This document shows positions 26,221 to 31,466 of a stretch of 64,000 bases of DNA, piece by piece. The notes under the pieces are model-generated. The model did not search any database, had not been told where the DNA came from, and saw nothing but the letters and a program-made list of their open reading frames with translations. Source of the stretch: Myxosarcina sp. GA_180221_E-2-1-MAG-40_15 (lineage in GTDB: Bacteria > Cyanobacteriota > Cyanobacteriia > Cyanobacteriales > Xenococcaceae); the NCBI GenBank assembly GCA_020692205.1, contig JAIMKV010000011.1:1681-65680 (forward strand), given 5' to 3'. Each line of letters opens with the position of its first letter. Position 1 is the first letter of the stretch. A program made the position numbers and the translations under genes.

Positions 26221-27705
26221 CTAGAATTCAGAACTTTCTGTGGGGTTCATACCGATAGGAACACCACCAGCACCACCAGCTAAGACATCGGCTTCTTTAA
26301 CAAATCCACTGTATGCTTCCATACCGTGTTCGCTGATATCTAAACCAAGCCTTTCTTCATCTTCATGAACTCGAATACCAATAGTAAATTTGAGGATTGA
26401 CCAAACAATGACACTAAAGATAACGGTAAAGGCACCAATAGATAGGATACCAATAAGTTGAGTCACGATATTAGCTGTACCGAAAATACCTACAGCTAAA
26501 GTTCCCCAGATCCCACATACCAGGTGAACTGAAGTTGCACCAACAGGATCATCAATTTTGATACTATCAAAAAAGGCAACTGAGAAAACAACAATAATCC
26601 CAGCAATTAAACCAATGATCACCGCAGACAAATAGCTAACATCCGCACAACCAGCGGTAATACCGACTAAACCAGCCAAAATACCGTTAATGATCATCGA
26701 TAAGTCAGGCTTCCCGTCTTTGATCCAAGACGTGAAGGTTGCTGCCACACCACCTGCTGCTGCGGATAAATTAGTAGTTACGGCGATATAAGGAACGTTG
26801 GCTGTGGCTGCCAATTCTGAACCAGGGTTGAAGCCAAACCAGCCAATCCAAAGAATCAAACAACCTAGAGTAGCGAAACCCATGTTGTGTCCAGGGATAG
26901 CGCTAGTTCTACCGTTTTGGTACTTACCAATTCTCGGGCCCAGAAGTGCTGCACCAACTAAAGCTGCCCAACCACCGACTGAGTGAACCACAGTTGAGCC
27001 AGCAAAGTCGGAAAAACCTAATTCAGCTAACCAACCACCATCCCAAACCCAGTGTCCAGTAATAGCGTAGGAAAAAGCTACTAGTAAGGTACTAAAGATT
27101 AAGAAAGCAGTGAACTTAATTCTTTCTGCTACCGCACCAGAGACAATGGTTGCAGCCGTTGCTGCAAAGGCTACCTGAAACAAAAAGCTGATTGCAGGAG
27201 GAACTGCTGCGGGGTAAGGATCGTCACCATAAGCTGCCGCATCACCACTAAAGAAAAACCCGCTGGTACCAATAAAGGGACTACCGTCGCCATACATTAG
27301 AGCGTATCCAACTGCCCAATAAGCTAAAGTAGCGATCGCAAAGACAATTAAGTTTTTGGCCAAAATATTAACCGCGTTTTTCTGACGGCAAAAACCTGCT
27401 TCTAGCATTCCAAATCCAGCATTCATAAAGATTACTAGAACTGAACAAAACAGCAGGAAAATGGAGTCTAAAACAACTCGTAGTTCGTCTAAATTAGCAG
27501 GGGCTTCCAACCCTTGTGCCGTAGCTGCCGTATTCCAGACGACAACTATCATCGCAGCTAAAGGAATACATATAAACCATGAAGGGGAGAATGTCTTGAA
27601 GACTGTTCTCAAAGGTCTTGGAAGCAAGCTTTTAGCTTGTGTTCCACTACCCAGAGTATTTTTACGTTTGAGTGTTTTTGTAGTTTTTAAGAATTCGGAA
27701 TTCAT
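26221..27705 (-). CDS. amt: ammonium transporter
   Basis: 494 residues of the Amt/MEP/Rh family. A basic N-terminal extension of about 35 residues precedes a signal-like segment ending AATAQG. About 11 transmembrane segments follow. Conserved blocks are [47 protein letters not shown] and [22 protein letters not shown], the last two holding the pore histidines. It moves ammonium across the plasma membrane and is usually under NtcA control. The palindromic NtcA site at 27800 lies 95 bases upstream of the ATG, although its best -10 box points the other way. Confidence 0.93.
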
Positions 27706-27799
27706 TTACACTTCGATTAAATTAGAAAATATAGCTAATTTGCCTATTTAATGACAAATTCGATTTTGTCTAGTCTGTGATTTTTTCTGCTTTTTTGCC

Positions 27800-27841
27800 G
27801 TATTTGCAAATACATTTATTTGTGCCATAAAACTGTATAAT
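27800..27841 (+). promoter_or_regulatory. NtcA-type promoter pointing into gene-free DNA
   Basis: GTATTTGCAAATAC (27800-27813) is a perfect 14-base palindrome of the GTA-N8-TAC type. On the plus strand it is followed after exactly 22 bases by TATAAT (27836-27841), the canonical class II NtcA promoter. Transcription would begin near 27848 and run into a stretch with no plus-strand gene. On the minus strand, toward amt, the best box at that spacing is only CAGACT. Confidence 0.65.
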
Positions 27842-28360
27842 GGTAGTCTTTTTTTAAATCAAAATTAAACTTTTATTCAAGTATTTAAATTGGCTTTGAG
27901 GGCAACTTTTTCTTGGGAACTAAAGCAAAAACTGTAACTTATGTGTCGAATTGTCTTCTTATTTAGTTCATCTTTACAGATCATACATAAAATTTCGCTC
28001 ATCAGTGAATAAAATTTAAGCTAGCCTGAGCAAACTTAATTAATTTACTGTTGAGTGGAGACAATGAAAGATTAGTTAATCTAATTTATGAGCAACAATA
28101 TTTAACAATTACTAAAAAAGATTATGGTTTTCTCTGTATTTAGTTGACTTTAAGTTTTCAACAAAAACAAACCATTACATCGCTAATTTTAACAATATAA
28201 CGTAAGAGAATAATGAAGAAAACCCAAATTCAAAACTACTTTTAGTTAAATTATTATAAGCTTCAAAAGCTTAAACCGTAGCGACCTGATGCCACATAAT
28301 GACAATGTTTCTAAAACTCACAAGTTTTACCATATTAGGCTTAGATGGAAATAAACGGCG
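27842..28360. other. gene-free region between amt and glnN
   Basis: About 520 AT-rich bases downstream of the plus-strand NtcA-type promoter and after the glnN stop. No open frame of note lies on the plus strand. A small RNA starting near 27848 is possible, but I could not identify its 3' end: no clear hairpin followed by T residues was found. Confidence 0.45.
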
Positions 28361-28387
28361 AAAAAAAAGGTCGCTCTATCTGCGACC
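28361..28387 (-). terminator. glnN terminator
   Basis: On the minus strand, GGTCGC-AGATAGA-GCGACC is followed by eight T residues, ending at 28361. It lies 29 bases after the glnN stop codon and is a standard Rho-independent terminator. Confidence 0.85.
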
Positions 28388-28415
28388 CCACGGGAATTGA
28401 ACAAACTAGCTAATG

Positions 28416-30590
28416 TTATTTGATAAACAACATTTCTTGATAGGTTGGCAACGGCCAAAGATCATCAGCTACTTCAGCTTCAAGAGCATCAACATCTTCT
28501 CTTACAGCATCCATCATCGGACGGATTGTAGTAGCAAAATATTTCATATGTTCTTCTGTGCTGGCAAAATCTTCTTTTGTCAAAGCAGAGCTTAATTTAG
28601 ACACTTTAGAGGTCATCGAGTTAGTCAACTCTGCAACTGTCTTGATATTATCCTTATCAAGACTAATGCCCATTTCTTCTAAACCCCCAACAGTAGTAGC
28701 AATATCAGCTAAATGTCTCATAGCAGCGGGATAAATTCCTGTTTTGGCAATGTCCACGACTAACTTAGCTTCTACCTCAATTGAGAGAATATATTGCTCT
28801 GCATATACTTCGTAACGACTTTCTAATTCCTTAGCAGAAAGTACTCCAGTCTTGGCAAAAAGTTCTTCAATATATTTTTCTGTTAATACTGGTAGAGCAT
28901 CAGCACTAGTAGGCAAGTTAGCCAAACCTCTTTCTTCAACTGCTATCTTATGCCATTCTTCAGAGTAACCATCGCCACCAAAAATGACCGCACCGTGTTT
29001 CTGCATTATTTCTTGAATCACAGTAAGTATTGCTTGGTTTAGCTCTGTACCCTTACTTAACTCACCTTCTAGAAGATCTCCTACGACAGTCAAAGAATCT
29101 GCCAGCATTGTATTGAGTGCAATCAATGGGCCAGAAACCGACTGACTAGAACCTACAGCACGGAATTCAAAGCGGTTACCAGTAAAAGCAAAGGGAGAAG
29201 TTCTATTGCGATCGCCTGCATCTTTGGCTAAAGGAGGTAAAGTATCGATCTCAAACTCCAATTTTCCGCTATGGCTGTACTGATCGCTAAGCTCCCCCGT
29301 AGCAATTTGGTTAAATAGCTCTTCTAATTGAGAACCCAAATAAACCGACATAATAGCAGGAGGTGCTTCGTTAGCTCCCAAACGATGATCGTTGCTGGCA
29401 TTAGCAATTACTGCCCGCATCAAAGGCCCATATTTATGTACCCCGCGAATTACCGCAGCGCAGAAAATCAGAAACTGGGCGTTTTCATGAGGCGAATCGC
29501 CAGGATCTAGTAAGTTCCCTTGAGTAGAATTACCTACAGACCAGTTAACGTGCTTACCCGAGCCGTTGATTCCCGCGAAAGGCTTTTCGTGAAGCAAACA
29601 GACAAAACCATGTTTCTTCGCGGTCTGACGCAATAAAGTCATAGTTAGCTGCTGGTGATCAGAAGCTACGTTAGCTGCTTCAAAAAAAGGAGCAATTTCA
29701 AACTGCCCAGGAGCTACTTCGTTATGTCTAGTTTTAGCGGGAATGCCTAAACGATACATTTTCTTTTCCACGTCCTGCATAAAGACTTGGACTCGCTCGG
29801 GAATCGCTCCGAAGTAATGATCGTCAAACTGTTGACCCTTGGCAGGAGGTTTGCCAAATAAAGTCCTGCCAGCTAATAATAAATCGGGACGGCTGTTGGC
29901 AAACAAAGCATCTACTAAAAAGTATTCTTGTTCTGCGCCACAGCTAGAATTCACAGGAGCAACATCATCATCACCCAAGAGCTTTAGCACTCTGGTTGCT
30001 GCCCTGTTCATTGCTCCAATAGAGCGCAATAAAGGAGTTTTTTTGTCTAGAGCTTCTCCTGTCCAAGAAACAAACACAGTCGGGATGCAAAGAGTCACGC
30101 CGTTATCTGTTTCCATCAGGTAAGCAGGACTGGTTACATCCCAAGCTGTATACCCTCTGGCTTCAAAAGTAGAGCGAATACCACCATTAGGAAAAGATGA
30201 ACCATCAGGCTCACCCTGCACCAATAGCTTACCTGCAAATTCAGTGATCGCACTGCCATCGCTTTGAGTGGAGATAAAACCATCGTGCTTTTCGGCAGTG
30301 GCATTAGTCATGGGATAAAAAACGTGAGCATAATACGATGCGCCTTTGGAAATTGCCCAATCTTTCATCGCTGATGCCACGGTGTCTGCAATGGAAACGT
30401 CTAGTTGTTCTCCTGCTTCAATGGTTTTTTTAAGTGATTTGAACACAGCTTTTGGCAAACATTGCTTCATTTTGCTCAAGCTGAAAACGTCTGCTGCCCA
30501 AAGATCTTCTAAACGTGTTGGAGGTCCGACAGGAATCGGTTCGCGGTCAGTAATTTGGTAGATTGCTTGTGTGCGAGATTCGTATCCCAT
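28416..30590 (-). CDS. glnN: glutamine synthetase type III
   Basis: 724 residues from the ATG at 30590 ([17 protein letters not shown]), the usual GlnN length. The frame stays open for 40 more codons, but those would overlap the promoter. Diagnostic blocks are [54 protein letters not shown] and [16 protein letters not shown]. GlnN joins ammonium to glutamate using ATP, as a dodecamer, and is induced in nitrogen starvation. An NtcA-type promoter lies just upstream, and the gene is paired with amt in a nitrogen-assimilation block. Confidence 0.96.
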
Positions 30591-30672: not shown

Positions 30673-30956
30673 AGAATTATCTTAATTTTTGATGAGCATG
30701 GCTCAATCAAAAGTAAGGTAAGCGATTGTTGCCAAGCTTGATTGATCGCTTAAAGTTAAGCTTTGTTTTAAATTTGTTCAGGTGTAGACCGAAAAGAAAA
30801 CTAAGATGTCAAAATTTAAAGTGAACCGTAGTCATCGCTACAACTTATGGGATTATTAATAAAAGTAGCTTAAGACATAACTGAAATAAATAAGGCGGTT
30901 AAACTCAGCCAAATTAAATAAATTAAATAAATTGCTGTTGGGAGAAACAAGGGAAG
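30673..30956 (+). promoter_or_regulatory. apcF upstream region
   Basis: 284 bases between the glnN promoter and apcF. It holds the apcF promoter, but I see no exact consensus. A TAAATTAAATAAATTAAATAAATT stretch (AAATT tandem-like) lies just before the ribosome-binding site GGGAGAAACAAGGGAAG. Confidence 0.4.
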
Positions 30957-31466
30957 ATGCGAGACGCAGTTACCGATTTAATTAGAAATTACGATATTGC
31001 CGGTCGTTATCTAGACCGTAATGCCATCGATAATCTTAAAGATTATTTTACCTCTGGTACTGCCAGAGTTGCAGTGGCAACTATAGTTAGCGGCAATGCT
31101 GCCACAATTGTAAAAGATGCAGGGATTAAACTATTTGAAGAAGTGCCAGAACTAATTAGTCCTGGAGGTAACGCCTATACTACCCGTCGTTACTCTGCTT
31201 GCTTGCGTGATATGGACTACTATCTACGTTATGCTAGCTATGCTTTGGTGGCGGGAAGCATGGATGTTTTAGATGAAAGAGTATTGCAAGGTTTGCGCGA
31301 GACATACAACTCTTTAGGAGTGCCAATTGGTCCTACTGTAGTTGGAATTCAAATTATGAAGGATATGCTCAAGGAAATGGCAGCAAACGAGGGGGTTGAA
31401 AATACTAATTTTATTGATGAGCCTTTTGAATATATGACTCGACAGCTAAGTGAGGTGTCTATTTAG
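30957..31466 (+). CDS. apcF: allophycocyanin beta-18 subunit
   Basis: 169 residues, starting MRDAVTDLIRNYDIAGRYLD. The bilin Cys lies in YSACLRDMDYYLRYASYALVAG, and VLDERVLQGLRETYNSLGVPIGPTVVGIQ is typical of ApcF rather than ApcB or ApcD. ApcF partners the terminal core-membrane linker ApcE in the phycobilisome core, passing energy toward photosystem II. Unlinked to other apc genes, as is usual for apcF. It has its own terminator. Confidence 0.95.
   Translation: MRDAVTDLIRNYDIAGRYLDRNAIDNLKDYFTSGTARVAVATIVSGNAATIVKDAGIKLFEEVPELISPGGNAYTTRRYSACLRDMDYYLRYASYALVAGSMDVLDERVLQGLRETYNSLGVPIGPTVVGIQIMKDMLKEMAANEGVENTNFIDEPFEYMTRQLSEVSI

Follow-up and report, generated by a model that had tools for sequence, protein, structure and literature searches.

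Class II NtcA promoters are described as a GTAN8TAC site followed at about 22 bases by a −10 box, with the centre of the site near −41.5, and it has been noted that two divergent genes may share a single NtcA site (PMC3898017). Noncoding RNAs driven by NtcA are already known. NsiR4 (PMC6316151, PMC9196836) has the same type of promoter, with a perfect NtcA motif around −41.5 (PMC6316151), and NtcA-dependent noncoding antisense RNAs have been published for Nostoc (PMC10287535), as has an antisense control of glnA in Nostoc that involves read-through from gifA (PMC11288750). Here we describe a locus at which a single predicted NtcA site appears to carry two opposed promoter arms, one directed toward the ammonium transporter gene amt and one directed away from it.

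The NtcA-type site between amt and glnN

In the window, by which we mean the whole 64,000-nucleotide stretch of DNA that was analysed, glnN lies upstream of amt on the same strand, and the gap between the two genes measures 710 bases. A preliminary description of this DNA had pointed out a perfect palindrome in the gap with a TATAAT box 22 bases downstream and no plus-strand gene close beyond. These coordinates were confirmed; the TATAAT that follows GTATTTGCAAATAC points away from amt (the away arm), and the next plus-strand gene past it is an allophycocyanin-beta-family gene at 30957. The features of the locus are as follows:

26221-27705, minus strand: amt, ammonium transporter gene (TIGR00836, PF00909)
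27728-27757, minus strand: possible second amt promoter of the sigma-70 type, TTGTCA-N18-TATATT, from a promoter-site scan; weak
27765, minus strand: predicted amt transcription start, placed by spacing, about 60 bases before the ATG
27772-27777, minus strand: amt-facing −10 position CAGACT, exactly 22 bases from the site
27800-27813, strand-neutral: predicted NtcA-type site GTATTTGCAAATAC, a perfect 14-base palindrome common to both arms
27836-27841, plus strand: away-arm −10 box TATAAT, 22 bases from the site, in the direction that is noncoding here
27846-27848, plus strand: predicted start of the away RNA, placed by its distance to the −10 box
27848-27877, plus strand: predicted initial transcribed stretch, which opens with a T-run and is moderately conserved in the genus (0.60)
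27972-27995, strand-neutral: weakly conserved element CTTTACA...ACATAA, spotted in the genus alignment
28367-28389, minus strand only: terminator-like hairpin of glnN, from a terminator scan
28416-30590, minus strand: glnN, type III glutamine synthetase gene (GSIII_N, PF12437), with its 3′ end facing the away arm

The centre of the site lies about 40–41 bases upstream of the predicted away start at 27846–27848, and the two −10 boxes (27772–27777 on the minus strand and 27836–27841 on the plus strand) are 58 bp apart. With a GTAN8TAC site, a TAN3T box about 22 bases downstream and an NtcA protein encoded in the host genome (385 bits, cut-off 245), the away arm has the form of a class II NtcA promoter. 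The arrangement GTAN8TAC-N22-TATAAT occurs once in the 64-kb window, as compared to 0.02 expected occurrences (two of 100 shuffles had one). With a loose −10 box, TANNNT, two matches were found in the window versus 0.59 expected; as at least two matches were also present in 11 of 100 shuffles, this loose form alone is not significant. Over the whole genome the loose form gave 51 matches (23 forward, 28 reverse), compared to 28 for a backward control, so that about half of them are attributable to chance. The promoter-site scan of the region returned three promoter-like sites where 3.7 were expected, and the possible second amt promoter is therefore weak.

Several further observations concern the window genome. 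Its glnN is the sole PF00120 match in this near-complete assembly; Pseudanabaena PCC 6903 has been cited as a glnN-only cyanobacterium (PMC6316151). Another GTAN8TAC site is located at 30828–30841, some 250 bases before the start codon of glnN and with TAGTTT 24 bases on; glnN itself may therefore be NtcA-regulated. NtcA-like sites with a near-identical ending, TGTATACAGT or TGTATACCGT, are found at G000:C51:6405, 7461 and 11957 and at C110:4718. Finally, GTAATCAAAGATAC is common to C51:7461 and C110:4718 and is also present at C53:8187, as a repeated promoter-like unit.

The away arm across Xenococcaceae

Among the named records kept, the amt of the window was closest to that of Waterburya agarophytonicola KI4 (86%), followed by those of other Xenococcaceae, the family to which the host appears to belong. 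For the family set, 26 of 27 genomes had an amt match by protein at an E value of 1e-100 or better. Defining the away arm as an NtcA-like site followed after 21–23 bases by TANNAT, we found it in 19 of these 26 genomes, 11 of 13 in the genus of the window genome and eight of 13 in other genera. The ten same-genus relatives that bear the arm came from DNA similarity, independent of the promoter pattern; the eight arms outside the genus were chosen by a scan demanding TANNNT at N21–24. The gap sequence was matched in 11 of the 12 other same-genus genomes, ten of these matches being located at amt; G006 gave a weak match elsewhere only, and G010 gave none. In these ten loci and in the window, the site is followed at 22–23 bases by TANNAT, facing away from amt. 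The site of the 19 arm-bearing loci reads GTAN8TAC in 15 and deviates by one mismatch in four, the box is exactly TATAAT in 12 of the 19, and the spacing is 22 bases in 12, 23 in five and 21 in two.

The arm is absent in different ways. In G006 the site is kept and the −10 reads TATGAG, in G010 the upstream sequence differs, in G017 and G022 an NtcA-like site has a −10 facing amt instead, and the amt matches of G013, G014 and G020 sit in another branch of the tree. According to the preliminary description, the −10 box should be kept along with the site, and it was kept in 19 of 20 site-bearing genomes, with G006 as the exception and with eight of these genomes pre-selected for TANNNT. The amt match of G006 (G006:C92, L128) has an in-frame stop in the same genome as the degraded away −10; that of G002 also has one stop, yet the arm is kept there. 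A second glnN-amt pair, at G007:C1:2399550-2402782 (L135), has no NtcA arm.

We also chose the site blind to the −10 sequence and scored boxes of the form TANNNT with at least four of six matches to TATAAT at N22–23. From shuffled flanks, such a box would be expected on the away side in 2.4 and on the side toward amt in 0.35 of the 25 loci; it was present in 17 and in none, respectively. Like all those in the family, these counts are not independent, as the genomes are related. The 25 loci represent the 26 amt loci with G013 omitted as a near copy of G020, and two arm-bearing loci were scored as lacking the box, L122 because of its spacing of 21 bases and L127 because another site was chosen.

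Over the 11 genus sequences, the −10 box reached a mean pairwise identity of 0.91 and the site 0.83, as compared to 0.57 in the spacer and 0.32 in the six bases that follow the box. Past the predicted start, identity in the same alignment was 0.60 over 30 bases, fell to 0.39 over approximately another 100 and then to 0.27, with a climb to 0.52 at 27978–28002. In the 19 loci, the sixth base after the −10 box is a purine in 16 (T in the window), the seventh a pyrimidine in all 19 and the eighth a T in 17. The element CTTTACA...ACATAA, about 175 bases past the NtcA site, is found in most genus members and, by eye, also in L122 and L126; it might be a promoter on the minus strand or the binding site of a regulator.

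The comparison supports a real NtcA class II-type promoter facing away from amt and, as had been proposed for the window, directed there into gene-free DNA. One could object that TATAAT is no promoter and that the site, very likely amt's own (see below), serves amt only. This would leave both the 17 boxes in 25 loci and the conservation of the −10 box above that of the spacer unaccounted for, and we consider it very improbable.

In a tree of the amt matches, the away-arm label requires three changes, as compared to 13.5 in shuffles (midpoint root). All 19 arm-bearing rows fall within a clade of 22 with support 99/95, apart from the g6 rows. One gain followed by some losses would be the simplest, though not the only, reading of the tree.

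The amt-facing arm and other cyanobacterial amt promoters

On the amt side all 19 loci carry a similar hexamer at a distance of exactly 22 bases from the site, CAAACT in 14 and CAGACT or GAAACT in five. This box (CAGACT or CAAACT at N22) falls outside the TAN3T pattern, and because of this departure we infer its role as the amt-arm −10 from its spacing and from other amt promoters. A different palindrome, CAAACT-N11-AGTTTG, which extends between the site and amt, was considered as another operator and rejected: its first half coincides with the −10 position that faces amt, and several other genera have preserved its second half poorly.

In total, 80 named amt loci were scanned, six of them from Xenococcaceae and 74 from other cyanobacteria. 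In the non-family set we considered sites of the form GTATN6ATAC, of which there were 31 in 30 of the 74 loci. At N22–23 of these sites, boxes of the form [TC][AG]NN[AC]T face amt in 23 cases and face away in none, TGGAAT at N22 being present in ten; this count is descriptive, as these sequences had been inspected before the pattern was drawn up. TANNAT at N21–24 was found on neither side of any of the 31 sites, and TANNNT was found in neither direction at N22–23 and in three cases away and none toward amt at N21–24. A looser scan of all 74 loci (at most one site mismatch, TANNNT at N21–24) gave away matches in 14 and matches toward amt in ten; one of the 14 is TATGAT at N23 (L097).

In the 30 non-Xenococcaceae loci, which are among L034–L108, many amt NtcA promoters have, at 22 bases, a −10 of TGGAAT, TGCAAT or CAAAAT, not TAN3T, together with AGA right after the site. 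Anabaena NtcA ChIP data list amt4 with such a site (PMC3898017), and by our own count of the site taken from that source, GACAAT stands at N22. From these sequences, cyanobacterial amt promoters seem to use a divergent −10 box, and the site is very likely amt's own. Based on this comparison, we conclude that the site would first have served to activate amt with a poor −10 and that a consensus −10 would have been added on its other side in a lineage of Xenococcaceae. The earlier remark that the site might be shared with a divergent amt promoter is therefore supported, the CAAACT-like box at N22 in 19 of 19 loci marking the presumed amt arm.

The same loci bear on the idea that the away arm is active but functionless and arose merely because the NtcA site is symmetric and its surroundings are AT-rich. 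The palindrome is indeed symmetric, the DNA is AT-rich and chance TANNNT boxes are common near NtcA sites. However, TANNAT and the start region are conserved over variable spacers, and no other amt site among the 31 has an away TANNAT at N21–24. We therefore regard a mere by-product as improbable.

The away RNA and its neighbours

The preliminary description had envisaged a discrete, NsiR4-like small RNA between amt and glnN. Its expectation that the RNA region would be conserved was met for the first 30 bases (moderate, 0.60) and failed beyond them (0.39, then 0.27). When the RNA part was searched in 60 genomes, matches outside the genus were short, with E values of 0.0015 or worse. RNAalifold on the 11 genus members gave a consensus fold of 0 pairs, and single-sequence folds differ between genomes. 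We found no plus-strand terminator-like site in the window with a scan that would miss AU-rich stems, and no terminator common to the relatives. On these grounds the discrete small RNA was not borne out. Some relatives do have a plus-strand hairpin followed by a T-run, near +41 in L123 and near +57 in L002, a close relative of the window genome, and L009 has a strong two-way terminator near +150, before glnN.

Rfam families, including NsiR4, had no match in the window at gathering score, and a search of 27700–28420 at E values up to 1 yielded nothing credible, the one family matched being an implausible miRNA on the opposite strand (E 0.17). A short protein was likewise rejected as the product: within the first 320 bases, the plus-strand ORFs of at least 15 residues have neither a common position nor a common sequence across the 11 genus members (compared by eye, at most six ORFs per genome considered), except for a short stretch common to the closest pair, the window and L002.

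A trans-acting nitrogen-stress RNA of the NsiR4 kind would start at about 27847 and pair with distant mRNAs. It would fit the NsiR4-type promoter, the moderately conserved first 30 bases and the T-run hairpins of L123, L002 and L009, and these last two features mean that the RNA itself may matter. Its body, however, has neither sequence conservation nor a consensus fold, and the window offers neither a plus-strand terminator-like site nor an Rfam match, which makes a trans-acting RNA unlikely in our judgement. What has been kept through evolution, on this comparison, is the promoter and its place beside amt, not the RNA.

The gene facing the arm raises another possibility. In the 19 arm-bearing genomes, the nearest long facing gene is glnN in nine and glnA in six (at a distance of about 1.06 kb in G015, where two short, overlapping ORFs intervene). 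In the remaining four the adjacent gene, named by eye from its translation, is not a glutamine synthetase (mscS-like in G001, kinase-like in G009, allophycocyanin-family in G024, ABC-type in G016), and the arm still stands beside amt. Read-through from the arm into the 3′ end of glnN, or of glnA in other genera, could lower or time the expression of that gene. The 15 of 19 facing glutamine synthetase 3′ ends, the window without a plus-strand terminator-like site and the published Nostoc cases of antisense control of glnA and of NtcA-dependent antisense RNAs are in line with such an effect. On the other hand, the arm is kept in the four genomes with another neighbour, so that antisense to glutamine synthetase was rejected as the general, conserved reason for the arm; in L009 the terminator stands before glnN; and co-induction with an NtcA-activated glutamine synthetase would oppose that enzyme, with gifA being NtcA-repressed (PMC9196836). 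Antisense transcription of this sort may take place in the window genome itself, and as an explanation of the arm we hold it to be rather improbable.

In G001, G009 and G024 the neighbour lies on the strand of the arm, 842, 505 and 436 bases on, respectively, and the arm might there give rise to a long-leader mRNA. The arm thus need not be noncoding in these three genomes, and as the three genes differ, no shared coding target is seen. In G001, a stretch resembling the end of glnN (by eye) is located about 3.9 kb further, at the contig end. In G011 and G005 a single strand carries glnA, then glnN, then amt, an order that may be ancestral. Tandems of glutamine synthetase genes and amt (glnA-amt, glnN-amt, glnA-glnN-amt) are present in L029–L033, G005, G011 and other family genomes; among the 80 named amt loci, glutamine synthetase is near amt only in L029–L033.

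A possible role in cis and comparison with known systems

We favour a role in cis at amt, by partition of polymerase, over a trans-acting RNA or antisense to glnN. Overall, we see about an even chance that one NtcA site carries two opposed class II-type promoters and that the away arm acts in cis on amt. Both arms, their spacing, their conservation and their phyletic pattern are read from the sequence; from these we infer NtcA binding, transcription, mutual exclusion and an effect on amt. The older arm would be the amt promoter, site-N22-CAAACT, and the derived arm, site-N22-TATAAT, would have arisen within Xenococcaceae and would direct transcription away from amt, in the window toward DNA without genes on that strand. 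When nitrogen is short, NtcA at the centre could serve RNA polymerase on either side. The predicted starts are about 82 bp apart, and as both polymerase footprints would reach the NtcA site, use of one arm probably precludes, at least in part, use of the other. With its better −10, the away arm would take a share of the polymerase recruited by NtcA, and amt expression would be capped or smoothed. The away RNA, variable in sequence, would be secondary.

A stricter version treats the arm as a governor: the NtcA dimer would serve either amt or a stronger, useless direction, amt output would be capped and smoothed in proportion to NtcA activity, and the sequence of the RNA would be irrelevant, initiation being the function. 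We put this version forward as possible but doubtful.

In E. coli, divergent promoters that lie close together have been described as competing for polymerase: strong activation in one direction can repress the other, as with a CRP site located at −40.5 that activates one direction with the other being blocked, whereas basal bidirectional activity is given there as too low for competition (PMC12825309). That source deals with promoters whose elements overlap, and divergent promoters that are separate are not termed bidirectional in it (PMC12825309). As the E. coli geometry differs from that of the amt site, the polymerase-partition step is our extrapolation. Against a role in cis may be held that one of 20 site-bearing genomes (G006) lost the −10, that the region is missing in G010 and that scattered away matches occur in 14 of the 74 non-family amt loci under the loose scan.

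If the cis model is true, the locus would present a promoter arm conserved for its position and activity, not for its RNA, and a clean natural test of whether divergent initiation tunes the gene next to it. The locus further highlights how poor the −10 box is in many cyanobacterial amt promoters, and it cautions against taking any NtcA promoter directed into gene-free DNA as the sign of a small RNA. In the literature covered, which leaves out most subscription journals, we found no report of an NtcA noncoding promoter opposite amt.

In its GTAN8TAC site, spacing, −10 box and centre, the away arm resembles the class II NtcA promoters described in PMC3898017; it differs from them in that two opposed arms stand on one site, with an amt-facing −10 of CAAACT, not TAN3T. 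Site sharing as such is not new, as that source already notes that a single site may act on a divergent pair of genes. With NsiR4 the arm has in common the perfect NtcA site around −41.5. NsiR4, however, is reported from 38 or more genomes, which span all five morphological subsections (PMC6316151), whereas the body of the away RNA is unconserved beyond the genus, a distinction drawn from the description of NsiR4, not from its sequence. Like the Nostoc antisense RNAs as_pstS2, as_pknC, as_fdxB and as_leuA, which are noncoding and have NtcA-site promoters (PMC10287535), the away RNA would be a noncoding product of an NtcA-site promoter; unlike them, it would start in an intergenic gap beside amt, from a site shared with amt, and might or might not overlap a gene. 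As at Nostoc glnA/gifA (PMC11288750), the transcript would face the 3′ end of a glutamine synthetase gene, but gifA is an NtcA-repressed protein gene, whereas the away arm has no coding sequence ahead of it in the window's gap and, by prediction, is activated by NtcA. With the bidirectional promoters of E. coli (PMC12825309) the locus would share divergent starts that may compete for polymerase. The core elements of those promoters are overlapping and pseudo-symmetrical under the strict definition, which does not extend to the amt site; here, the −10 boxes lie apart and are linked by one activator site.
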